DNA of 61,686 bases, taken from assembly GCA_017540505.1 (NCBI GenBank), contig JAFYAW010000023.1:1-61686 (forward strand), written 5' to 3'. The translations under genes and the position numbers were made by a program. The notes under the pieces were generated by a model. It did no database searches, was not told where the DNA came from, and saw nothing but the letters and a program-made list of their open reading frames with translations. Positions 18,672-48,208 of this stretch are shown piece by piece (within the stretch, counting starts at the first letter, position 1; every line of letters begins with the position of its first letter). The DNA comes from Bacteroidales bacterium. Its GTDB lineage: Bacteria; Bacteroidota; Bacteroidia; Bacteroidales; WCHB1-69.

Positions 18672-18722
18672 ATTCTAAAAACCTTTGCAACACCCTGATT
18701 CTTTGCGATTTTATGCCATTTA

Positions 18723-19666
18723 GTTGTTAGCGGTTGCAAAGATACAAACTTTTGAAAGCAATTCACAACTTCCATTGATAAGGTTGAACCTGCCTCTATG
18801 TTGTTAGCGGTTGCAAAGATACAAACTTTTGAAAGCAATTCACAACTGCCTCAACCGATTTACCAGCAGGGACTTAGTTGTTAGCGGTTGCAAAGATACA
18901 AACTTTTGAAAGCAATTCACAACCAGTAGTCGAAGGTAATGGAAATTTGAAGGTTGTTAGCGGTTGCAAAGATACAAACTTTTGAAAGCAATTCACAACC
19001 TCTCGATTGGTACATTTGCTACGAATTGCGTTGTTAGCGGTTGCAAAGATACAAACTTTTGAAAGCAATTCACAACCTTTTCTCATGCCGGCTATTTTTT
19101 TTTAGTGTTGTTAGCGGTTGCAAAGATACAAACTTTTGAAAGCAATTCACAACGTTAATTACTGGGTTTGTATTCTCTTTCCAGTTGTTAGCGGTTGCAA
19201 AGATACAAACTTTTGAAAGCAATTCACAACACATTGGTAAGTTGCTTATTAATCAACTTTGTTGTTAGCGGTTGCAAAGATACAAACTTTTGAAAGCAAT
19301 TCACAACATTCCGAATAGTGGTCCGATTGCTGGAGCGTTGTTAGCGGTTGCAAAGATACAAACTTTTGAAAGCAATTCACAACCTGTAGTAGTTCTTAAA
19401 GATGTCGTAATACGTTGTTAGCGGTTGCAAAGATACAAACTTTTGAAAGCAATTCACAACCCTGCCACATCTGTAAATTCGTGTCGAATGGTTGTTAGCG
19501 GTTGCAAAGATACAAACTTTTGAAAGCAATTCACAACTAATCCACTACGCTTCCGTTGTAGAATGCGTTGTTAGCGGTTGCAAAGATACAAACTTTTGAA
19601 AGCAATTCACAACTGCGCCACGATATGAACCATCTCCCTTTGAGTTGTTAGCGGTTGCAAAGATAC
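18723..19666 (-). CRISPR. type II-C CRISPR array, 12 full repeats, one half repeat, 12 spacers
   Basis: Twelve 47-bp repeats start at 18723, 18800, 18877, 18953, 19030, 19107, 19184, 19261, 19337, 19414, 19491 and 19567, identical as far as I could read. A 23-bp half repeat lies at 19644-19666. Spacers are 29 or 30 bp. On the plus strand the repeat begins GTTGTTAGCGGTTGC and ends CAATTCACAAC. The crRNA sense is the minus strand (GTTGTGAATTGCTTTC first), because that end pairs with the tracrRNA anti-repeat. Each repeat carries TATCTTTG, a perfect TAnnTTTG box, at crRNA-sense positions 26-33, with GTTG 21 nt upstream. The array lies 5 nt past the xseA stop, on the same strand. No spacer target was recognised by eye. 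Confidence 0.98.
19644..19666 (-). promoter_or_regulatory. half repeat carrying a -7 box at the xseA end of the array
   Basis: Only crRNA-sense positions 25-47 of the repeat are kept here, which is the part with TATCTTTG and the downstream tail. The tracrRNA-pairing half is missing. It would serve as promoter for the adjacent first spacer (19614-19643) without being needed as a crRNA handle. Confidence 0.6.
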
Positions 19667-36295: not shown

Positions 36296-36303
36296 TATCT
36301 TTG
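36296..36303 (+). promoter_or_regulatory. -7 promoter box of the sulfonolipid/Hdr operon
   Basis: TATCTTTG followed by CAGCC, 33 nt before the VOC ATG at 36336. No other -7 box was seen before the downstream genes up to 45795. Confidence 0.65.
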
Positions 36304-36335
36304 CAGCCTAAAATTAGTAAAAGCTTTTACCATCT

Positions 36336-37421
36336 ATGAATGATTTTTTTATCTCCGGCATTCAACAAGTTGGTGTAGGAACCGTAGATATGCGGAAGTC
36401 GTGGGACTGGTACATCGACATGTTCAATATTGACATCAAGATTTTGGAAGACGACACGGTGGCGGAGCGGATGCTCCCCTACACGGGCAACCAGCCGCAG
36501 AAGCGGCATGCCTGCATTGCCGTGAACCTGCAGGGCGGCGGCGGTTTGGAGATCTGGCAGTACAGCGAGCGCACGCCCGTACCGGTGGCCTTTGACATCG
36601 CCGTGGGTGACCTTGGCATTTTCGCCGCCAAGATCAAATGCCGCAACGTGAAAGCATTTCATGCATACGCATCCTCGAAATGGCCGGACTGCGGCGCCAT
36701 ATCCGCCCTACCTGACGGAACGCCCTGCCTATACCTCCGCGACCTGTATGGCAACTACCTCCAGGTGGTGGAGCAGCCCGACATCTACATTGAGCAGCAC
36801 TGCCTCACCGGCGGCGTGACGGGCGCGGTCATCGGGGTTACCGATATGGACGCCTCCATACGCTTCTACCGCGAGGTGTTGGGCTACGAGCAGGTGATAT
36901 ACGATGAGACCGGTCGGTTCGACGACTGGCAGATGCTGCCCGGCTCCGGCGAACAATACCGTCGTGTGCTCCTCAAAGACCCCTCCAAGCCCAAAGGACC
37001 GTTATCCGAGCTTATGCCCAAAGGCTGCATCGAATTGGTGCAGGCACTGGACCGCACGCCGAGGAAAATCTACGAAGGACGCTACTGGGGCGACCCCGGA
37101 TTCATCCAATTATGCTTCGACATCACCAACATGAAGCAGTTGGGTGAGTTTTGCGCCTCCAAAGGACATCCCTTCACCGTGGACAGCTGTCCTGGCAACG
37201 AGGTCTTCGACATGGGCGACGCCTCCGGACACTTCACCTACATTGAAGACCCGGACGGCACCCTGATTGAATTTGTGGAGACGCACAAGATTCCCGTCAT
37301 CAAAAAAATCGGCTGGTTCATCGACCTGATAAACCGCAAACGCGAGAAGCCCCTGCCCCGCTTCCTGTTCAAGGCCATGGGCTTGGTTTCCCGCGAGAAA
37401 GCCAACAAATCCGACAATTAA
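36336..37421 (+). CDS. VOC-family protein, 4-hydroxyphenylpyruvate-dioxygenase-like
   Basis: 361 residues with two vicinal-oxygen-chelate modules. The first lies at about 8-145 (GVGTVDMRKSWDWYIDMF, GGGGLEIWQYSERTP) and the second at about 155-315 (GVTDMDASIRFYREVLGYEQ, then HFTYIEDPDGTLIEFVE with the late Glu ligand). The second module keeps the His/Glu metal-site pattern of dioxygenase-type VOC proteins. The C-terminal tail is basic. The reaction is unknown. Its place at the head of the sulfonolipid-type operon, 23 nt before the PLP acyltransferase, suggests a lipid or sulfonate modification step, but that is inference. Confidence 0.75.
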   Translation: MNDFFISGIQQVGVGTVDMRKSWDWYIDMFNIDIKILEDDTVAERMLPYTGNQPQKRHACIAVNLQGGGGLEIWQYSERTPVPVAFDIAVGDLGIFAAKIKCRNVKAFHAYASSKWPDCGAISALPDGTPCLYLRDLYGNYLQVVEQPDIYIEQHCLTGGVTGAVIGVTDMDASIRFYREVLGYEQVIYDETGRFDDWQMLPGSGEQYRRVLLKDPSKPKGPLSELMPKGCIELVQALDRTPRKIYEGRYWGDPGFIQLCFDITNMKQLGEFCASKGHPFTVDSCPGNEVFDMGDASGHFTYIEDPDGTLIEFVETHKIPVIKKIGWFIDLINRKREKPLPRFLFKAMGLVSREKANKSDN

Positions 37422-37444
37422 TTAACAAACCCATTTATAACATT

Positions 37445-38704
37445 ATGCAAAAAGACATTTTCGAAAGAATCAAACAATCCACGGGCGGCCCTATCGGGCA
37501 ATACCGTGATAAAGCGGAAGGCTACTTCACCTTCCCGAAACTGGAAGGCGAACTGGGTCCGCACATGCGTTTCAACGGCAAGGAAGTGCTTTGCTGGAGC
37601 CTCAACAACTACCTCGGTCTCGCCAACCATCCGGAGATCCGCAAGACCGACGCGGAGGCTGCTGCCCGCTGGGGCATGGCCTATCCGATGGGCAGCCGTA
37701 TGATGACGGGGCAAACGGCCTTGCATGAGAAGCTGGAACGCGAGCTGGCCGAGTTCGAGGGCAAAGAGGCCGCCTTCGAGTTCAATTTCGGCTACCAGGG
37801 CATTTTCTCCACCATTGATTCGTTGGTAAACCGCCACGACGTCATCGTGTATGACGCGGAGGCGCACGCCTGCCTGCTGGACGGCATCCGTCTGCATCTG
37901 GGCCACAAATACAAATTCCGCCACAACAACATCGAAGATTGTGACCGCGTGATGGCCCATGCCACCGAGGTGGCCGACCAGAACGGAGGCGGCGTGCTGC
38001 TCATCACCGAAGGCGTCTTCGGCATGACTGGCGCCTTAGGCATCCTGGACCAGATTGCGGCCCTGAAAAAGAAATACAAATTCCGCATCCTCATTGACGA
38101 CGCGCACGGCTTCGGCGTGATGGGACCCAACGGTCGCGGCACCTCCGAGCATTTCGGCGTGATGGACGACATCGACATCTACATCGGTGCCTACGCCAAG
38201 TCGATGGCCACCATCGGCGGTTTTGTCGCCACGGAGAAAGCCATCATCGACTATCTGAAATACAACATGCGTTCGCAGATGTACGCCAAATCGCTCCCGA
38301 TGCCCATCGTGGAGGGCTGTCTGAAACGTCTGGAAATCATCCGCAGTCCCGAGGGTGACGCCCGCAGAGCGCATTTGTGGGAGGTGACCCGCCGTCTGCA
38401 AAAAGGATTCCGCGACCTCGGTTACGAAATCGGACCTGCCGAAGCGTGTGTCACGCCCGTGCATCTGAAATGCGGTGTGAACCAGGCCACGAACATCGCC
38501 GTCGATCTGCGCGAGAACTACAACATCTTCTGCTCCATCGTCACCTATCCCGTCATTCCTCCCGGAATGCTGATCTTCCGCATCATCCCCACGGCGGCGC
38601 ACAGCATCGAAGACGTGGACCGCACCTTGGATGCCTTCCGCGACATCAAGGAACGTCTGGCCAAGGGCGACTACGACCACGAGATCCCCAACATGGCGCT
38701 TTAA
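37445..38704 (+). CDS. PLP-dependent acyltransferase, cysteate acyltransferase / serine palmitoyltransferase-like
   Basis: 419 residues of the alpha-oxoamine synthase family. It has CWSLNNYLGLANHPE, MMTGQTALHEKLERELA, EGVFGMTGALGILD, DDAHGFGVMGPNGRGT, and the Schiff-base lysine K252 in AYAKSMATIGGF. The family condenses an amino acid with an acyl thioester, with loss of CO2. Candidates are serine (sphingolipids), cysteate (sulfonolipids such as capnine) or glycine. The wording departs from the Bacteroides serine palmitoyltransferases that I recall. A cysteate synthase ends the same operon, so I favour cysteate:acyl transferase (CapA/SulA-like). The substrate is inferred from context, not proven. 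Confidence 0.85.
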   Translation: MQKDIFERIKQSTGGPIGQYRDKAEGYFTFPKLEGELGPHMRFNGKEVLCWSLNNYLGLANHPEIRKTDAEAAARWGMAYPMGSRMMTGQTALHEKLERELAEFEGKEAAFEFNFGYQGIFSTIDSLVNRHDVIVYDAEAHACLLDGIRLHLGHKYKFRHNNIEDCDRVMAHATEVADQNGGGVLLITEGVFGMTGALGILDQIAALKKKYKFRILIDDAHGFGVMGPNGRGTSEHFGVMDDIDIYIGAYAKSMATIGGFVATEKAIIDYLKYNMRSQMYAKSLPMPIVEGCLKRLEIIRSPEGDARRAHLWEVTRRLQKGFRDLGYEIGPAEACVTPVHLKCGVNQATNIAVDLRENYNIFCSIVTYPVIPPGMLIFRIIPTAAHSIEDVDRTLDAFRDIKERLAKGDYDHEIPNMAL

Positions 38705-38731
38705 CGGCATTTTACAAAACGAAAAAGAATC

Positions 38732-39529
38732 ATGACAGATCGAAACGGACAAGTAATCTGGATCACGGGAGGCTCCTCCGGTATCGGGGAGGCGTGTGCA
38801 TACCGCTATGCCGCGGAGCATGCCTCCCTCGTGCTGACCGCCCTCACGGCGGAGGAGTTGGAGCCGGTGGTGGCCAAGTGCCGCGACCTTGGTGCGACAG
38901 TTTACGCCCTACCCTACGACTTGCAGCATCCGGACGGCATTGAGGCACTGGCCGAAGAGGCCTGGAACGCCTTCCACCGCATCGACATCCTCTACTGTAA
39001 CGCCGGCATCAGCCAGCGCACCACGGTGGAGGACACATCCATGGGGATGATTCGCAAGCTGATGGAGATCAACTACTTCGCCCCGGTAGCTATCGCCAAG
39101 GCCGTGCTGCCGAAGATGTTAGCGGCGGGCGGCGGCCACATCGCCGTGACCACCTCCATCGCCGGAAAATTCGGATTCCCGCTGCGCTGCGGCTACTGTT
39201 CCTCCAAACACGCCCTCTATGGCTTCTTTGAGACGCTGCAGGCCGAATATTCGGACCGCAACATCCACGTCACCATCGTGTGCCCGGGGCGCGTGCGGAC
39301 CAATATCTCGCTCCATGCCTTGGACAAGGATGGCAAGCCCCACGGCAAGATGGATCCCGGCCAAGGCGGAGGGCTCTCCCCTGAGCAGGCCGCCAAGATC
39401 ATCCAGAAAGCCATCGACCGGAGCAAGCGCGAGGTGCTTGTCGGGCGCAAGGAGCTCATCATGGTCTATGTCAAGCGTTTCTTTCCGGGCCTTTGTGCCA
39501 AGATTGCCAAACGAATAAAATCGATGTAA
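38732..39529 (+). CDS. short-chain dehydrogenase/reductase, candidate 3-ketocapnine or 3-ketosphinganine reductase
   Basis: 265 residues. N-terminal Rossmann motif TGGSSGIGEAC, NAG motif at LYCNAGISQ, catalytic Ser in TTSIAGKFGF, and Y155-x3-K159 in YCSSKHALYGF. The C-terminal basic helix (VKRFFPGLCAKIAKRIKSM) looks membrane-associating, as in reductases acting on lipid ketones. Directly following the acyltransferase, it is the natural candidate for reducing the 3-keto product with NAD(P)H. Its stop is immediately followed by the HdrC-like start (no spacer), so translation is probably coupled. Confidence 0.82.
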   Translation: MTDRNGQVIWITGGSSGIGEACAYRYAAEHASLVLTALTAEELEPVVAKCRDLGATVYALPYDLQHPDGIEALAEEAWNAFHRIDILYCNAGISQRTTVEDTSMGMIRKLMEINYFAPVAIAKAVLPKMLAAGGGHIAVTTSIAGKFGFPLRCGYCSSKHALYGFFETLQAEYSDRNIHVTIVCPGRVRTNISLHALDKDGKPHGKMDPGQGGGLSPEQAAKIIQKAIDRSKREVLVGRKELIMVYVKRFFPGLCAKIAKRIKSM

Positions 39530-40243
39530 ATGAACAACGACAACAAACCTAAGAATCTGTTTGACGAACTCTGCAAGGACTACCGTTTCAAGGAGGGGTT
39601 CCACACCTGTATCAACTGCGGAACCTGCACGGCGATATGTCCGGCGGCGGAGTTCTACAAATACGACCCGCGGAAGATCGTGAACATCGTGCAAACCCGC
39701 GACGACCAGCAGATTGAGGAGCTGCTGAAGTCCGACACCATCTGGTACTGCGGCGAGTGCATGAGCTGCGTCACCCGATGTCCGCGCAAGAACGGCCCCG
39801 GACTGGTCATCATCGCCCTCCGCGACCTCAGCGCCCGTCTGGGCTATTTCACCGAATCAGAAAAAGGCCGGCAGTTGCTGCCCCTGACGCACATCATGAC
39901 CGGCAACATCCTCAACTACGGCTATTGCGTCCACCCCAAATCCTTCAAATGGGAAGACCACAAGGAATCCGGCCCCGTCTGGAAATGGCATACCGAGCAT
40001 TTAGAGCAAAGCCTCGCCCGCCAGGGTGCCAACTACATGGGCGACGGCCCCGGCATCCTGCGCAAGATCCCGCAGGAGTCCTTGGACGAGCTCAAGGCCA
40101 TCTTCGACGTTACCGGCGGCACCGAGCGCATCGCCATCGTGGAGAAATACTCCAAGGCCAAGGCTGAGGAGATGGGCATGGACTTTGAAGAATATGAGAA
40201 GCAGGCTTTCGAATACTGTTCGGACAAACATTTTAACCATTAA
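39530..40243 (+). CDS. HdrC-like iron-sulfur protein
   Basis: 237 residues with two four-cysteine motifs, CINCGTCTAICPAAEF near residue 24 and CGECMSCVTRCP near residue 73. They bind two [4Fe-4S] clusters as in heterodisulfide-reductase subunit C and related wires. The C-terminal part is longer than in classical HdrC. It passes electrons between the HdrA-like flavoprotein and the HdrB-like subunit encoded 7 nt downstream. First of the five Hdr-like genes of the operon. Confidence 0.85.
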   Translation: MNNDNKPKNLFDELCKDYRFKEGFHTCINCGTCTAICPAAEFYKYDPRKIVNIVQTRDDQQIEELLKSDTIWYCGECMSCVTRCPRKNGPGLVIIALRDLSARLGYFTESEKGRQLLPLTHIMTGNILNYGYCVHPKSFKWEDHKESGPVWKWHTEHLEQSLARQGANYMGDGPGILRKIPQESLDELKAIFDVTGGTERIAIVEKYSKAKAEEMGMDFEEYEKQAFEYCSDKHFNH

Positions 40244-40250
40244 ACCCATT

Positions 40251-41321
40251 ATGATTACCCAAGGCAAACAAAAAATATGGAGCGACTACCAGAAGGAGAT
40301 TCCCGACGACCACTGGTATTATGTCCGGAGCTGCATCCGTCAGAATTTCTTCCCCGCCAGTGAGAAGATGTTCACGGAGATCACGCGCAACGTGCTGGGC
40401 AAGGACATCTACGAGACGCCCCACCATACCACCTGCGGGGGCATCGCCTACCACTGCGACACCATCCCCCAGGAGACCGTCATGACCATTGTGGCACGGC
40501 AGTTCGCCCTGATGACGGAGGCCGGCTACGAGAACTACGTGCCCAGCTGCATCACCTCCTTCGGCAACTACTGCGAGATCTTAGAGACCTGGCACGAGTT
40601 TCCCGAACTGGAGGCCAAGATCCGCGAGAATTTGTGGAAAGCCTGCCGGCGCGAGTTCAACAAGCCCAAATACCTGGCCCACACCAGTGACCTCATCTAC
40701 CATTGGCGCAACCAGATTGCTGCCAAGGCCAAATATCACCTCGTCAACAAGGAGACGGGCGAGCCGCTGAAGATTGTGGAGCACATCGGATGCCACTACG
40801 CGAAGATGTTCCCCAGCAAGGGCGTGGGCGGCGCGGAATACCCCTACGTGCTGGCCGGCATGATTGAGAGCTGGGGCGGACAGGTGGTGGACTACCCCGA
40901 GCGGCGGCACTGCTGCGGCTACGGATTCCGTCAGTATCACGTTAAGGCCAACCGAGGCTACAGCGTCTCCAACACCCACAAGAAATTCGAATCCATGGAG
41001 CCCTTCCACCCCGATGCCATCATCACCAACTGCCCCGGATGCCCCTACTTCCTCGACCGCTGGCAATATGTCATCGCCGAGCAGACGGGCAAAACCTACG
41101 GCAAGGATGGCTACGGCATCCCCGTACTGACCTACGAGGAGCTGGCAGGCATCGTCCTCGGCTATGATCCCTGGGACCTCGGCCTGCAACTGCACCAAGT
41201 GGCCGTGGAACCCCTTTTAGACAAAATCGGCATGGAATACGACCCCAAAGCCAAGTATTTAGGCCTGAACAAAGAGGACATCCTTCGTCCGGAACTTCCC
41301 AAATCCATAAAATGTTGTTAA
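40251..41321 (+). CDS. HdrB-like protein (CCG-domain)
   Basis: 356 residues from the ATG at 40251; the longer frame to 40026 overlaps the upstream gene and is rejected. It carries CCG-type cysteine patterns: PSCITSFGNYCE in the first domain, and EHIGCHYAK, RRHCCGYGFRQYH and ITNCPGCPYFLD in the second. These bind the noncubane [4Fe-4S] clusters of HdrB-type subunits, where disulfide or sulfur substrates are reduced or oxidised. It ends in a KSIKCC dicysteine. Methanogenesis is not in question here, so the substrate must be another thiol, disulfide or persulfide. Confidence 0.85.
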   Translation: MITQGKQKIWSDYQKEIPDDHWYYVRSCIRQNFFPASEKMFTEITRNVLGKDIYETPHHTTCGGIAYHCDTIPQETVMTIVARQFALMTEAGYENYVPSCITSFGNYCEILETWHEFPELEAKIRENLWKACRREFNKPKYLAHTSDLIYHWRNQIAAKAKYHLVNKETGEPLKIVEHIGCHYAKMFPSKGVGGAEYPYVLAGMIESWGGQVVDYPERRHCCGYGFRQYHVKANRGYSVSNTHKKFESMEPFHPDAIITNCPGCPYFLDRWQYVIAEQTGKTYGKDGYGIPVLTYEELAGIVLGYDPWDLGLQLHQVAVEPLLDKIGMEYDPKAKYLGLNKEDILRPELPKSIKCC

Positions 41322-41325
41322 CGCA

Positions 41326-42339
41326 ATGAAAGAGAACATCGTAATAATCGGCGGGGGCATCGCAGGCATGGAGGCGGCCAAACAGCTGCTCATCCTCGGC
41401 TACACCCCCATCATCATCGAACAGGAGGACCACCTCGGCGGCCATGTGGCCCAATGGCACAAGCTGTTCCCCGACATGACCTCATCCCACGAACTGATTG
41501 GGAACCTGTCGGACCAGATCAAGGATGCCAATGTCTTCTTAGAAACGAAAGTAAACTCCATCAACGCATTGGGAGACAGTTATAATGTAATTTTAAACAA
41601 CGGGGTCAACATCGTGGCCAAAGCCATCCTCATTGCGGCCGGCTTCCATCTCTTTGATGCGGCCAAGAAGGAGGAGTACGGTTACGGCGTATATGACCGA
41701 GTCATCACCAATGCGGATTTGGAGGCCTGGTTCAACCACCGTGCCGACGAACGCATCCCGGAAAAGCCTAAAGCGGTAGGCTTCGTGCACTGCGTGGGCT
41801 CCCGCGACCTCAAGGCGGGCAACAGCCAATGCTCCAAGGTGTGCTGCACCACGGCCATCAAACAGGCTATTGAGATCAAAGAGATATTCCCCGAAACGGA
41901 AGTCTATTGTTTTTACATGGACCTGCGTCTTTTCGGCAAGAAATACGAGGATTTCTACATCAACGCGCAGCGTGATTTCGGCGTGCATTTCATCCGGGGC
42001 CGCGTGTCGGAGGTGGGCGAGACCATCGACAACCGCGTGCAGGTGAAGGCCGAGGACACGCTTACCGGCAAACCCCTCAAGGTCACGCTGGACCTGCTCG
42101 TGCTCATGTCGGGCATGGTGTGCAACCCGCGCACCAGCGAGCTGGCCGGGATGATCGGTCTCAACATCGACGACGACGGCTTCCTCAAGAGCAAGGACAA
42201 CGTCTATACCATCATGGAATCCAACCAGCCGGGCATCTTCTACGCCGGCGCGTGCACGGGCACCAAGACCGTGCCGGAGACCGTGGCCGAGGCCCGAGCC
42301 GCCGTGCTCAGTATTCACCATTATCTGACACAGGCATGA
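41326..42339 (+). CDS. HdrA-like FAD-dependent oxidoreductase (short form)
   Basis: 337 residues. FAD-binding GGGIAGMEAAKQL at the N-terminus, an HdrA-type segment EDHLGGHVAQWHKLFP, a second dinucleotide region with CVGSRDLKAGNSQCSKVCC, and a late FYAGACTGTKTVPETVAEARAA. It is far shorter than full HdrA (650 residues or more) and lacks its ferredoxin domains, resembling QmoA/HdrA-like cores. It should pass electrons to the neighbouring HdrC-like proteins. It overlaps the next gene by 4 nt (ATGA at 42336). Confidence 0.85.
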   Translation: MKENIVIIGGGIAGMEAAKQLLILGYTPIIIEQEDHLGGHVAQWHKLFPDMTSSHELIGNLSDQIKDANVFLETKVNSINALGDSYNVILNNGVNIVAKAILIAAGFHLFDAAKKEEYGYGVYDRVITNADLEAWFNHRADERIPEKPKAVGFVHCVGSRDLKAGNSQCSKVCCTTAIKQAIEIKEIFPETEVYCFYMDLRLFGKKYEDFYINAQRDFGVHFIRGRVSEVGETIDNRVQVKAEDTLTGKPLKVTLDLLVLMSGMVCNPRTSELAGMIGLNIDDDGFLKSKDNVYTIMESNQPGIFYAGACTGTKTVPETVAEARAAVLSIHHYLTQA

Positions 42340-42656
42340 TGGATTTCGGTTTCACCCTCAGCAAAAGCTCCACCATCAACCTCGACACGGTGGACACCAC
42401 CCTCTACAAGAAGCTCTGCGACATGGAGCCGGATGCCCGCATCTGCATGAGCTGCGGTTCTTGCAGCGCGAGCTGCACCGCCGCATCCTTCAGCGGCATG
42501 AGCCTCCGCAAGGTCATTCTCGCCCTCCAACGCGACCAGGACGTGCGCCCCATGCTGGCCAACTGCATGCTCTGCGGGAAGTGCACCATGGTCTGCCCCC
42601 GCGCCATCAACACCCGTCACCTCATTTTGACCCTTTACAGAATTTATGATCGATAG
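42336..42656 (+). CDS. small second HdrC-like ferredoxin
   Basis: 106 residues from the ATG at 42336 (a second ATG follows at once). Two [4Fe-4S] motifs: CMSCGSCSASCTAASF and CMLCGKCTMVCPRAI. It overlaps HdrA-like upstream by 4 nt and the membrane subunit downstream by 11 nt, so all three are translated together. It is probably the electron wire to the membrane subunit. The longer frame to 42120 is a shadow within the HdrA-like gene. Confidence 0.85.
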   Translation: MMDFGFTLSKSSTINLDTVDTTLYKKLCDMEPDARICMSCGSCSASCTAASFSGMSLRKVILALQRDQDVRPMLANCMLCGKCTMVCPRAINTRHLILTLYRIYDR

Positions 42657-44475
42657 AATACCCTCCGGCTTTCACCCGTTCGTGCTGCCCTTCCTGTTCG
42701 GCATGATCTTCGTGCTATCCTACTGCGTTTTCGGGATAGTGCGGATCCTGTGGCAGCTCCCCAAGCAGGATGTGCGGAAATTCCTGCTGTCGCTCATCAA
42801 CCCCAAGATAATCGTGAAGAATATTTGGGAAATATTCCGCGACTGCCTCATCCACGTCAAACTCTGGAAACGCAACAAGCTGCTGGGCTATATGCACTCC
42901 AGCATCGCCTTCGGATGGTTCATGCTGATCCTGCTCGGCCATGTTGAGGTTTTCCTCTTCGTGCCCGAACGCATCCACATGTTCTACTACCCCATCTTCT
43001 TCAACTACTTTGTGGCCGAAGGCCCGGATGTGACCCTGCAAGGCTCGCTGCTGATGTTCCTCATGGACCTCTTCCTGCTGATCGTGCTCAGCGGCATCGT
43101 GTTAGCCATAATTAAGCGGGTGCACTCCCGATTCTTCGGCATGAGGCGCACGGCACGGCCCTCCCTGCTGAACCAGATCGGCCTCTACGCCCTGTGGGCC
43201 ATCTTCCCGCTGCGACTGCTGGCCGAGAGCTTCACCGCCCACATCAGCGGCGGCTCCTTCCTGACCATCCCCGCCAACTGGATCTTCCGCCAGTTCCTCG
43301 GCAACGACCTCAACATGCTCCCCACCTGGTGGGCCTACTCCATCGCCCTCTGCGTCTTCATGTGCGTGCTACCCTTCACGCGCTACATGCACATCCCGGC
43401 GGAGATGATGCTCATACCCATGCGTAACGCCGGCATCAAGATCCGCGACTCGCGCAAAGGCTTCGCCAAGCTGCAGGTGTATAGCTGCCCCAACTGCGGG
43501 GTCTGCATCGATGCCTGCCCAATGAGCGTCAACCGGAGCCATCTGAAGGACTGCACCGTCTATCTCACCCGCCAGATGCGCCGTGGCAACGAGAAGCGCA
43601 TCGAAGAGATCTCCGACAAATGCCTCCTCTGCGGCAAGTGCCACAGCGTATGCCAAGTGCAAGTAGAAGGCCCTCAACTGCGCATCATGGAACGCTCGCG
43701 CCGCCATTACAACCTCTCCCCCGACTACTCGAACATCGACACACAGCCCCTGACCGAAACCGCCAGCCATGGCAAGGTGCTCTATTTCAGCGGCTGCATG
43801 AGCCAGCTCACCCCCGCCATCGGACAGAGCGTGGAATCCATCCTCAAGAAAGCGGGCGTGGACTATGTGTGGATGGACCGCGACGGCGGCCTCTGCTGCG
43901 GACGGCCGCTGCTGACCGCCGGACGTGCTGAAGCGGCCAAAGAGTTAGTACACAAAAACGAGGAAATCATTATAGGCAGCGGTGCCGACACCCTATTGGT
44001 AAGCTGCCCCATCTGCTACAAGATGTTCACGGAAGAATACCACCTTCCGGGCATCCGCGTGGTGCATTACAGTCACTATTTCAGTGAGTTGGTGCAACAA
44101 GACAAAATCCGCCTGGAGAAGAGCGACCTGTGCTATGTGTTCCACGATCCTTGTGAGTTGGGACGCGGATGCGGCATCTACGACGAGCCGCGGAAGCTCA
44201 TCGGCAAGTCGGCCAGCATTGCGGAAGCAGAGAAGAACCGTGAGGAGAGCATCTGCTGCGGCGGGTCGTTAGGCTCGCTCACATTGAGCTTTGCCCAGCG
44301 CGAGGAGATGACACGCGCCGCCTTGGAAAACCTATACACCAGCCGCGCCGACGCCATCGCCACCGCCTGCCCACTCTGCCTCGCCACCTTCGCCCGCTAC
44401 TCCGACCGGCCCGTACGCGACCTGGCGGAAATCATCGACGCCCAATCCTCATCCACCCAGAAAGGAAATCAATAA
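42646..44475 (+). CDS. membrane-bound HdrDE/DsrMK-like iron-sulfur protein
   Basis: 609 residues. The N-terminal half (about 1-260) has five or six membrane helices with several His residues, like the cytochrome-b/HdrE/NarI-type quinone module. Then come two [4Fe-4S] motifs (CPNCGVCIDACP, CLLCGKCHSVC). Two CCG domains follow (YFSGCMSQL with GGLCCGRPLL, and DPCELGRGCG with ESICCGGSLG), as in HdrD/DsrK. It is a fusion of a quinone-reactive membrane anchor with the disulfide/sulfur catalytic part. This predicts electron exchange between menaquinone and the Hdr-like complex. Confidence 0.87.
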   Translation: MIDRIPSGFHPFVLPFLFGMIFVLSYCVFGIVRILWQLPKQDVRKFLLSLINPKIIVKNIWEIFRDCLIHVKLWKRNKLLGYMHSSIAFGWFMLILLGHVEVFLFVPERIHMFYYPIFFNYFVAEGPDVTLQGSLLMFLMDLFLLIVLSGIVLAIIKRVHSRFFGMRRTARPSLLNQIGLYALWAIFPLRLLAESFTAHISGGSFLTIPANWIFRQFLGNDLNMLPTWWAYSIALCVFMCVLPFTRYMHIPAEMMLIPMRNAGIKIRDSRKGFAKLQVYSCPNCGVCIDACPMSVNRSHLKDCTVYLTRQMRRGNEKRIEEISDKCLLCGKCHSVCQVQVEGPQLRIMERSRRHYNLSPDYSNIDTQPLTETASHGKVLYFSGCMSQLTPAIGQSVESILKKAGVDYVWMDRDGGLCCGRPLLTAGRAEAAKELVHKNEEIIIGSGADTLLVSCPICYKMFTEEYHLPGIRVVHYSHYFSELVQQDKIRLEKSDLCYVFHDPCELGRGCGIYDEPRKLIGKSASIAEAEKNREESICCGGSLGSLTLSFAQREEMTRAALENLYTSRADAIATACPLCLATFARYSDRPVRDLAEIIDAQSSSTQKGNQ

Positions 44476-44511
44476 CCAAACCATAATTCACCCTTAAAAA
44501 ACATCACGATT

Positions 44512-45795
44512 ATGAGATTCAAACCCACGCAATACCTTCTCGTCAACGTTGAGAACGGCCATACCTTTGAAGACAAAGGCTGGACCCTGAGCGACCCCGA
44601 CGGCAAGAAACCGTCGCTGATCCGCGCCATGTATAAGAACATCCTCTTCACCCCGCGCGAGGAGCTGGATGGCATCTACCGTTATGCGGACTGGATGCCC
44701 ATCAACCGCACACTAAAGAAATCCTGCGCCCCCGTCACCTACAAGTCCAAAGGGCTGGCCAAATTTCTGGGTTTGGACAACCTGTACATCACCTTCTCCG
44801 GCTGGTGCCCGAAGATCGGGGCCAAGATGCGCACCTGCTCCTTCAAGGAGACGGAGGCCTACTCGGTGCTGGCCCGCATCAGCCGCAACGAGAACCGCAT
44901 CCTCGTGGTGCAGTCCGCCGGCAACACGGCCCGCGCCTTCGCGCAGGTGTGCTCCGACAACCGCATCCCCATCGTGCTGTGCGTGCCCTACGACAACCTC
45001 CACGACCTCTGGTTCAGCAAGAAGCTAGACAAGTGCGTCAAGTTGGTGGTCGTGCCCCACGGGTACGACTACTACGATGCCATCGCCGTTGGCGAGAAAT
45101 TGGCGGAAGACCACCGCTTTTTCTTAGAAGGCGGGGCCAAGAACGTTGCGCGACGCGACGGCATGGGCACCACCGTGCTGAGCTGTGTGGAACAGATGCA
45201 GCGCATCCCTGACGCCTATTTCCAGGCCGTAGGTTCCGGCACCGGAGCCATCGCCGCTTGGGAGAATGCCTGCCGTTTGGAGGCCGACGGACGCTTCGGC
45301 AACAACCACATGCGCGTGTATGTGGCCCAGAACAAGCCCTTTACCCTCATGTACGACGCCTGGGAAGCCCAATCGAGGGCCCTGCCCGAGCTCTCCGCCG
45401 AAGAGGGACGCCGTCAGGCCGAGGTCATCCTCGCCAAGGTACTCTCCAACCGCAAGCCGCCCTACAGCCTTGCCGGCGGCCTGTTCGACACGCTGACGGA
45501 AAGTCACGGCGACGTGTTCTTAGCCGACAACAACGACATCATGTATTGGATGATGCAATACCGCAACCTGGAGGGTTACGACCTGTTGCCCGCCGCCTGC
45601 GTGGCCGTGAGCGCGCTGGCGCAAGCCGTCAAGGAAGGAGTGGTGAAGAAGGAGGAGTATATTATGCTCAACTGCACCGGCGGCGGCTCTCTCACCGCCA
45701 TGAGCAAAGGCTTTGTCTTCAAGGAACCCGACCTCATCCTCTCGCCGGACCTGCCGTCCGAGACCATCATCGAGAAAGTGAGTGCCCTGTTCTAA
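44512..45795 (+). CDS. cysteate synthase
   Basis: 427 residues, a threonine-synthase-like PLP fold with candidate lysine K112 in CSFKETEAYSV and the phosphate-binding GSGTGAIAAWENA. The whole-length wording (WCPKIGAKMRTCSFKE, SLAGGLFDTLTESHGDVF) resembles cysteate synthases, which make L-cysteate from phosphoserine and sulfite. In archaea this enzyme feeds coenzyme M synthesis. In Bacteroidota, cysteate is the head-group precursor of sulfonolipids. It lies 36 nt after the Hdr-like membrane gene and ends the operon at a clear terminator. A diverged threonine synthase is the main alternative. Confidence 0.82.
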   Translation: MRFKPTQYLLVNVENGHTFEDKGWTLSDPDGKKPSLIRAMYKNILFTPREELDGIYRYADWMPINRTLKKSCAPVTYKSKGLAKFLGLDNLYITFSGWCPKIGAKMRTCSFKETEAYSVLARISRNENRILVVQSAGNTARAFAQVCSDNRIPIVLCVPYDNLHDLWFSKKLDKCVKLVVVPHGYDYYDAIAVGEKLAEDHRFFLEGGAKNVARRDGMGTTVLSCVEQMQRIPDAYFQAVGSGTGAIAAWENACRLEADGRFGNNHMRVYVAQNKPFTLMYDAWEAQSRALPELSAEEGRRQAEVILAKVLSNRKPPYSLAGGLFDTLTESHGDVFLADNNDIMYWMMQYRNLEGYDLLPAACVAVSALAQAVKEGVVKKEEYIMLNCTGGGSLTAMSKGFVFKEPDLILSPDLPSETIIEKVSALF

Positions 45796-45804
45796 ACTAT
45801 TTTT

Positions 45805-45832
45805 AAGGCAACGATAATCGTTGCCTTTTTCT
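45805..45832 (+). terminator. terminator of the sulfonolipid/Hdr operon
   Basis: AAGGCAACG pairs with CGTTGCCTT around ATAAT, followed by TTTCTTTTT. Confidence 0.8.
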
Positions 45833-47758: not shown

Positions 47759-48208
47759 CTATACCCCCTCCTGCGGGAGTGATTGCGACATGTTTTCCGA
47801 CAGCTTATCCAAGGTATTCAGGAAGTTGCGCAGCTCTTCCTCGCTGATGCCGGCGAGCACCTTGTCTAACATGGAGATGCCCACCTGCTTGGCCTCCTGT
47901 TTCATCTGTTCGCCTTTGGGGGTGAGCACGATGATATTGGAACGTTTGTCATTAGGGTTTTTGCGCCGGGCAATAAAGGATTTCTTTTCCAGTGCATCCA
48001 CCAGTTTGGTGACGGAGTTTTTGTCCTTCTGCATATTGTTGGCCAGGCTCTGCTGCGACATCGGGCCCTGGTTCCAGAGGATGTCCACCAGCAGGAACTG
48101 TTCGGGCGTAAGGCCCAGGTCATACTGTTTCAGCATGGCGGAGGTGTACTGTTTCAACCTACAGGCCGCCAGATTGATATACACGGCGATTTCTTTGGAC
48201 AATAGCAT
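47759..48208 (-). CDS. MarR-family transcriptional regulator
   Basis: 149 residues with a winged helix-turn-helix: FLLVDILWNQGPMSQQSLAN (helices 2-3), KDKNSVTKLVDALEKK (recognition helix) and the wing FIARRKNPNDKRSNIIVLT. The N-terminal helix (MLLSKEIAVYINLAACRLKQ) and the C-terminal helix form the dimer. MarR proteins repress nearby or distant genes and are released by small phenolic or oxidant signals. It is convergent with the DUF4153 gene and divergent from the HEPN-hsdM unit, so it could regulate the restriction locus, but no palindromic operator was evident. Promoter box TATCTTTG at 48232-48239. Confidence 0.9.
   Translation of the reverse strand: MLLSKEIAVYINLAACRLKQYTSAMLKQYDLGLTPEQFLLVDILWNQGPMSQQSLANNMQKDKNSVTKLVDALEKKSFIARRKNPNDKRSNIIVLTPKGEQMKQEAKQVGISMLDKVLAGISEEELRNFLNTLDKLSENMSQSLPQEGV

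Follow-up and report, generated by a model that had tools for sequence, protein, structure and literature searches.

The 61,686 bp contig JAFYAW010000023.1 (GenBank assembly GCA_017540505.1; this whole stretch is referred to here as the window), from a Bacteroidales bacterium of the WCHB1-69 lineage, carries a row of nine co-directed genes in which genes associated with capnine-type sulfonolipids enclose five genes for proteins resembling heterodisulfide reductase (Hdr). All nine lie on the + strand at 36336-45795, each is open and starts with ATG, and the order is VOC, CapA, SDR, HdrC1, HdrB1, HdrA, HdrC2, HdrDE and CysS, with successive gaps of 23, 27, 0, 7, 4, -1, -11 and 36 nucleotides (nt). 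The tight same-strand row stands at the place and on the strand given in a first-pass annotation of this DNA, and the identities proposed there for CapA, cysteate synthase, the five Hdr-like proteins, the SDR and the VOC protein are upheld by PDB, Pfam and NCBIfam matches. The row and its flanking signals are as follows (aa, amino acids):

36296..36303, + strand: TATCTTTG box of the Bacteroidetes -7 promoter type, a possible promoter for the operon, 32 nt upstream of the first ATG
36336..37421, + strand: VOC (glyoxalase-superfamily) protein, 361 aa (Pfam PF00903)
37445..38704, + strand: CapA, cysteate C-fatty-acyltransferase, 419 aa (best PDB matches 7u7h and 28eh)
38732..39529, + strand: SDR, candidate 3-ketocapnine reductase, 265 aa (Pfam adh_short; NF004825 over cut-off)
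39530..40243, + strand: HdrC1-like protein, 237 aa, two 4Fe-4S motifs (Pfam and NCBIfam matches)
40251..41321, + strand: HdrB1-like protein, 356 aa (PDB 9sfi_C and 5odc_B matches)
41326..42339, + strand: HdrA-like flavoprotein, short form, 337 aa (PDB 6tjr match)
42339..42656, + strand: HdrC2-like protein, 105 aa, two 4Fe-4S motifs (Pfam and NCBIfam; motif alignment of 81 sequences)
42646..44475, + strand: HdrDE/B2-like fusion, 609 aa, two 4Fe-4S motifs and two complete CCG sites
44512..45795, + strand: CysS, cysteate synthase, 427 aa (TIGR03844, PDB 9k3c)
45805..45827, + strand: intrinsic terminator, 10-pair stem with a T-run, directly after CysS

The terminator is as annotated, and although a scan of the window gives 11 candidate sites against 9.7 expected, the one at 45805 has the longest stem. 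The promoter, which had been read as a single one for the whole row, is less secure. The TATCTTTG box, which we take to be a Bacteroidetes-type -7 motif, is indeed present; the window, however, contains 73 copies of TANNTTTG where 33.6 are expected (a repeat array supplying part of the excess), and inspection by eye reveals no clear TTG at the usual -33 spacing from the 36296 box; because the motif is so common and this TTG is not evident, we regard a single promoter for the nine genes as plausible. A CRISPR-like array of about 12 units, with a 47-nt repeat and spacers of about 30 nt, lies at window positions 18720-19666, and its repeats contain TATCTTTG boxes on the - strand.

Sulfonolipid genes and the Hdr-like proteins

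CapA and CysS are clear relatives of structurally solved enzymes. CapA scores 568 bits against PDB 7u7h and 545 bits against 28eh ('Cysteate-C-fatty acyltransferase'), and is set apart from serine palmitoyltransferase (SPT), its next-best PDB match, at 220 bits. Cysteate synthase makes cysteate from sulfite and O-phosphoserine; the window protein scores 421 bits against TIGR03844 (cut-off 324.9) and 470 bits against PDB 9k3c ('Cysteate synthase'), and is the sole PALP-family match found in its genome. In a phylum-wide sample, cysteate synthase was found in 9 of 395 genomes, namely the window genome and eight from one family outside Bacteroidales. The SDR, which exceeds the cut-off of an SDR family oxidoreductase model (NF004825), is a candidate 3-ketocapnine reductase by virtue of its position, and the VOC protein, whose gene is also found near CapA and SDR at four other loci (L053, L163, L165 and L232; L and G numbers are our labels for loci and genomes), could possibly catalyze a step of the lipid pathway that has not yet been described. 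CysS and CapA resemble the enzymes of the known capnine pathway, and an SDR is present as well, but the arrangement differs. According to the passages of PMC11211663 drawn on here, the genes for the reductase in A. finegoldii and C. gleum form no cluster with cfat and Cys, whereas the reductase candidate, CapA and CysS stand here in one row with the Hdr-like and VOC genes.

Assignment of the five Hdr-like proteins is based on Pfam, NCBIfam and PDB matches, and none of them exceeds an NCBIfam Hdr cut-off; HdrA, for example, scores 240, 183 and 164 bits against models with cut-offs of 1100, 1400 and 1300. Their cysteine motifs are well conserved, in alignments that include close relatives and some genomes entered twice. 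In HdrC1 the eight motif cysteines and C133 are invariant among 91 sequences. HdrB1 has a complete C-terminal CCG site (C181, C221, C222, C261 and C264) and an N-terminal site reduced to C28, C62 and C100, with all eight cysteines invariant among 115 sequences; its predicted structure has a mean predicted local distance difference test (pLDDT) score of 56.9, from a shallow alignment, and was left unused for any search. The two full CCG sites of HdrDE show conservation of 0.99-1.00 among 107 sequences. The N-terminal part of HdrDE contains hydrophobic segments with conserved histidines, and while there is no NarI-type Pfam match and no match to a NarI or HdrE profile in Pfam or NCBIfam, these segments make it a putative membrane (menaquinone) link. 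A quinone-linked subunit of the HdrDE/DsrMK type would pair a membrane haem domain with two CCG sites. HdrA aligns over nearly its full length with PDB 6tjr (residues 4-329 to 3-335 of 349), which we take to be the sHdrA of Hyphomicrobium, and it also matches the core of methanogen HdrA; C156, C169, C173 and C174 are invariant among 113 sequences. It retains Glu133 and Lys179, which by manual count align with residues 356 and 409 of 5odc_A, residues that we presume to be linked to bifurcation; 6tjr has an asparagine at the Lys179 position.

The sequence supports an sHdr-like make-up for the module. Passages of the sHdr literature give the gene order hdrC1B1A-hyp-hdrC2B2 (PMC6335251, PMC12345210), sulfite as the product (PMC6335251, PMC12423496, PMC10332631), dissimilatory sulfur oxidizers as the organisms in which it is reported and LbpA as essential to it (both PMC10332631). 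The window module shares the order C1-B1-A-C2-B2, the short HdrA, and the CCG and 4Fe-4S subunits, but the HdrA and HdrC2 genes overlap by 1 nt with no hyp gene between them, the Bacteroidales module has no LbpA or lip genes visible beside it, B2 is replaced by the putative membrane fusion HdrDE, HdrA keeps its lysine, and the module sits among biosynthetic genes in gut Bacteroidales. With methanogen HdrABC and HdrDE it shares the HdrB C-terminal CCG site, the FAD/4Fe-4S core of HdrA and the HdrD-type double CCG arrangement; it differs from HdrABC in the length of HdrA (337 aa here, whereas the PDB chains that it matches have 643-671), in scores far below the NCBIfam cut-offs and in the reduced N-terminal site of HdrB1. 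A C1-B1-A-C2-B2 set on a plasmid of Picosynechococcus sp. PCC 7003 (NZ_CP016476.1, L242 7068-12808) has 42-48% identity in C1, B1 and A, but has a separate B2 (290 aa) followed by an FAD oxidoreductase, and no cysteate or sulfonolipid gene is named among the 19 features listed there.

Linkage and co-occurrence with sulfonolipid genes

The block recurs beside CysS in relatives. We compared the nearest 80 named loci of at least 570 HdrB relatives (82-95% identity; these are near kin and not independent), which are Bacteroidales, many of them, judging by their titles, from rumen or animal gut samples. CysS adjoins HdrC1-B1-A-C2-DE in 67 of the 72 with enough flank, leaving five without CysS beside the module and eight in which the flank is too short. 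'Muribaculum sp. An289' (L142), whose record is not labeled as a metagenome assembly, also carries the block. CapA is a less constant companion, adjoining the block in 26 of 73 (47 without, and seven with too little flank).

A second HdrB lineage shows a similar association with different partners. At L053, L163, L164, L165 and L232 the module lies beside CapA and a different PALP enzyme, and the genes are arranged differently in L053, L163 and L232. At a further locus, L239, the module adjoins CapA and no cysteate synthase was seen. The PALP enzyme of the second lineage has a zinc ribbon, and its gene is placed as follows at three of the loci:

L163 14450-15670; L164 11412-12641; L053 15055-16242: zinc-ribbon PALP enzyme beside CapA

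These three proteins score 108-120 bits against TIGR03844 and 149-184 bits against the best threonine synthase model, all below the cut-offs, and the gene also adjoins CapA in genomes of the window's own family such as G013, G073 and G040. Its pairing with CapA extends over several families. The enzyme is a candidate for an alternative, second type of cysteate synthase, as far as its sequence and position go.

From a sample of 295 genomes of the order we fetched HdrB loci for 89 of the 92 HdrB-containing genomes, the window included (G023, G503 and G553 were left out); 81 contain all five genes, three the C1-B1 pair alone, and five are partial, three of these at contig ends. CapA, CysS or the alternative PALP enzyme lies in the fetched stretch of eight genomes (the window genome, G499, G710, G571, G672, G597, G532 and G629), whereas about 0.8 would be expected if two targets were placed at random in genomes of 3.5 Mb. 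A quick tree of HdrB with 131 rows has six changes of the linked state, with gains and losses counted together; it contains one well-supported CysS-linked clade, which holds the window, and another clade with CapA and the zinc-ribbon PALP enzyme.

The tree also contains HdrC1-HdrB1 pairs that lack HdrA, HdrC2 and HdrDE (L064, L073, L077, L080, L184, L187, L191, L204, L215, L217, L219 and L226), often as a second copy. They share one 15-row clade with two full modules (L169 and L179), and their neighbors look different from those of the module, judging by the look of the sequences.

For the co-occurrence counts, CapA was called at E 1e-100 or better, clearly above the SPT-type group; the genomes are drafts and absences are therefore soft. 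CapA is present in 209 of the 295 order genomes, including 86 of the 92 with HdrB but 123 of the 203 without it (p 9e-10), and of the six HdrB genomes that lack CapA (G513, G644, G652, G713, G722 and G734) four are 76-82% complete. None of the 48 genomes listed for 18 CapA-less families has HdrB. CysS is present in 81 order genomes (80 over the cut-off), 33 of which also have HdrB. Among 99 genomes of the window's family, HdrB occurs in 70, CapA in 73 and both in 62. The conserved block, the linkage in a second lineage and the near-restriction of HdrB to genomes with CapA together support the view that the Hdr-like genes belong with the cysteate and sulfonolipid genes. HdrB-bearing genomes of the window's genus number 33 in the family sample. 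In 29 of them HdrB stands at 60-66% identity, while the window genome, G079, G092 and G093 have one linked-type HdrB and one strong CysS with no weaker PALP match, as though the types of HdrB and of cysteate synthase had been swapped together.

We collected 87 operonic neighbors of the module from 45 fetched loci and scanned 65 of them against Pfam (the 22 left out were already labeled sulfonolipid genes, or short or doubtful open reading frames), examining 25 of the 57 families. No sulfur-carrier or LbpA partner was found constantly beside the module, the neighbors differing between families, and the sulfur-related ones each occur in one or two genomes. They include a SulP sulfate permease after CysS in L063, PHO4-family permeases adjoining the module in L228 and L176 (one closest to the model for the sulfate permease CysP, below its cut-off), and a TauE-family protein in L233. 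In L177 (34-6634), from a Bacteroidales genome, TusA, two HdrA-like genes and one HdrC-like gene, which we take to be Qmo-like, lie directly upstream of the module, and a Cys/Met-metabolism enzyme is also among its neighbors there. Two-component regulators, Pst-like ABC components and genes with housekeeping functions make up the rest.

Possible roles of the complex

The first-pass annotation had suggested that the Hdr-like proteins supply or balance sulfite for cysteate. The conserved linkage, the near-restriction to CapA genomes and the sHdr-like make-up are consistent with this, and our preferred, though still tentative, explanation is that the module is a membrane-anchored relative of sHdr that makes sulfite from sulfane sulfur for cysteate, with menaquinone as the acceptor. 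Sulfane sulfur, as a persulfide or bound to a carrier, would be oxidized at the CCG iron-sulfur sites of HdrB1 and HdrDE, and the electrons would pass via HdrA (FAD) and HdrC1 and HdrC2 to HdrDE and then to menaquinone. The complex would hand sulfite to cysteate synthase in the anaerobic cell, to be joined with O-phosphoserine as cysteate, which CapA would condense with an acyl group, and reduction of the ketone by the SDR would then give a capnine-type sulfonolipid. Sulfite as the product, the direction of the reaction, the electron acceptor and the sulfur donor are all points that we infer; sulfite is proposed as the currency because CysS, the constant neighbor, uses it and because the module is sHdr-like in make-up. 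The wider proposition, an anabolic, menaquinone-linked and membrane-fused relative of sHdr with which gut and rumen Bacteroidales would produce sulfite from reduced sulfur whenever it is needed, without oxygen and in some lineages without sulfate assimilation, for their sulfonolipids, is more speculative, and we would not favor it over its alternatives taken together.

If the Hdr module were a source of sulfite, then CapA genomes that have it might dispense with sulfate assimilation, and the earliest comparison pointed that way. Among 80 CapA genomes (the discovery set), CysH is missing from 18 of the 42 that have Hdr and from 3 of the 38 that lack it; for CysD the counts are 18 of 42 and 2 of 38, and for both genes together 18 of 42 and 0 of 38. 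The prediction for CysH alone was fixed in advance and checked in 80 further CapA genomes. In both sets an E 1e-8 match was counted as presence (including a 53-bit match in G586), and with the two combined CysH is absent in 30 of 82 with Hdr and 10 of 78 without (p 0.0005), a signal carried by genomes smaller than 3 Mb (22 of 33 with Hdr and 4 of 19 without; for larger genomes, 8 of 49 and 6 of 59). In the window's family, with presence defined as a match over the curated cut-off, CysH is absent in 46 of 62 CapA genomes with Hdr and 3 of 11 without (p 0.004). The anticorrelation of CysH and CysD with the module thus weakly supports a role in sulfite supply.

Several observations nonetheless weigh against sulfite supply by an sHdr-type mechanism. 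In the validation set taken by itself CysH is absent in 12 of 40 genomes with Hdr and 7 of 40 without (p 0.29), and of 17 order families containing both states five run in the expected direction, four in the opposite one and eight are ties; we therefore reject the idea that Hdr replaces sulfate assimilation. In the window genome, Pst-type permease genes precede CysD, CysN and CysH, which by their sequences constitute another route to sulfite; the module would there be one source besides this route, which counts against the simplest version of the annotated role. CapA can do without the module, since 123 of the 209 CapA order genomes have no HdrB match, and in 81 of the 89 fetched order loci the stretch covered shows none of CapA, CysS and the alternative PALP gene. 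LbpA and lipoate genes were absent from the 25 of 57 Pfam families examined among the 65 neighbors, all in other genomes, the window's own genome not having been searched. Finally, an HdrA that keeps Lys179 where 6tjr has an asparagine may function unlike that of sHdr.

That lysine, together with Glu133, would suit a complex working in the other direction, which is the main rival as to direction: it would reductively split an S-SO3 compound (thiosulfate or an S-sulfonate) into sulfite and a thiol or sulfide, drawing electrons from menaquinol or from flavin-based coupling. HdrDE retains two complete CCG sites, the kind at which heterodisulfide reductase breaks S-S bonds; the sulfate-permease-type transporters beside the module in L063, L228 and L176 (the last by Pfam family only) could also be accommodated. 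The gene order and short HdrA, however, match the oxidative sHdr, and no thiosulfate-specific gene was noticed among the neighbor families examined, and we consider reductive splitting rather unlikely. A role that serves sulfonolipid producers without making sulfite, by re-reducing a disulfide or carrier or acting as an electron sink, seems to us unlikely too, if not quite so much. Near-restriction to CapA genomes leaves the step unnamed, the weakness of the CysH anticorrelation speaks for such a role, and at L239 CapA is present with no cysteate synthase seen; but in the window's lineage it is CysS rather than CapA that accompanies the module so consistently, and we are aware of no capnine-pathway step that would call for a disulfide reductase.

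The scarcity of sulfonolipid genes at most fetched order loci, and the regulators, Pst-like and housekeeping genes among the neighbors, could reflect a general menaquinone-linked Hdr complex that has become co-regulated with membrane-lipid genes by happenstance in some lineages. This appears distinctly improbable given the lack of HdrB in the listed genomes of CapA-less families, the linkage in two HdrB lineages, and the joint change of HdrB type and cysteate synthase type within the window's genus. A chance neighborhood or an assembly artefact might be entertained since the window comes from a draft of 2.5 Mb in 51 contigs (91% complete), but the same block is conserved across loci in many separate assemblies, which makes such an origin extremely improbable.

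If the preferred reading, sulfite production by an sHdr relative, is correct, anaerobes would have redeployed for biosynthesis a kind of complex that has been reported to date from dissimilatory sulfur oxidizers, and gut sulfur chemistry would be tied to a host-active lipid, with a genetic handle on that lipid. PMC11211663 discusses sulfonolipids from human-associated bacteria as molecules linked to inflammation; its main text does not use the word sulfite and, in the parts drawn on here, does not address where the sulfite for sulfonolipids comes from. We found no paper on Hdr-sulfonolipid gene linkage in the literature searched, whose coverage leaves out the majority of subscription articles and every bioRxiv preprint.

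One further gene of the window, outside the operon, may be relevant to its control:

47759..48208, - strand: MarR-family regulator (Pfam MarR, 67.7 bits)

This protein is a candidate regulator of the operon. Relatives are encoded in 18 fetched loci (some from the same genome twice), Cys16 is present in 17 of 19 aligned rows, and in L063 the MarR gene lies directly before HdrC1.

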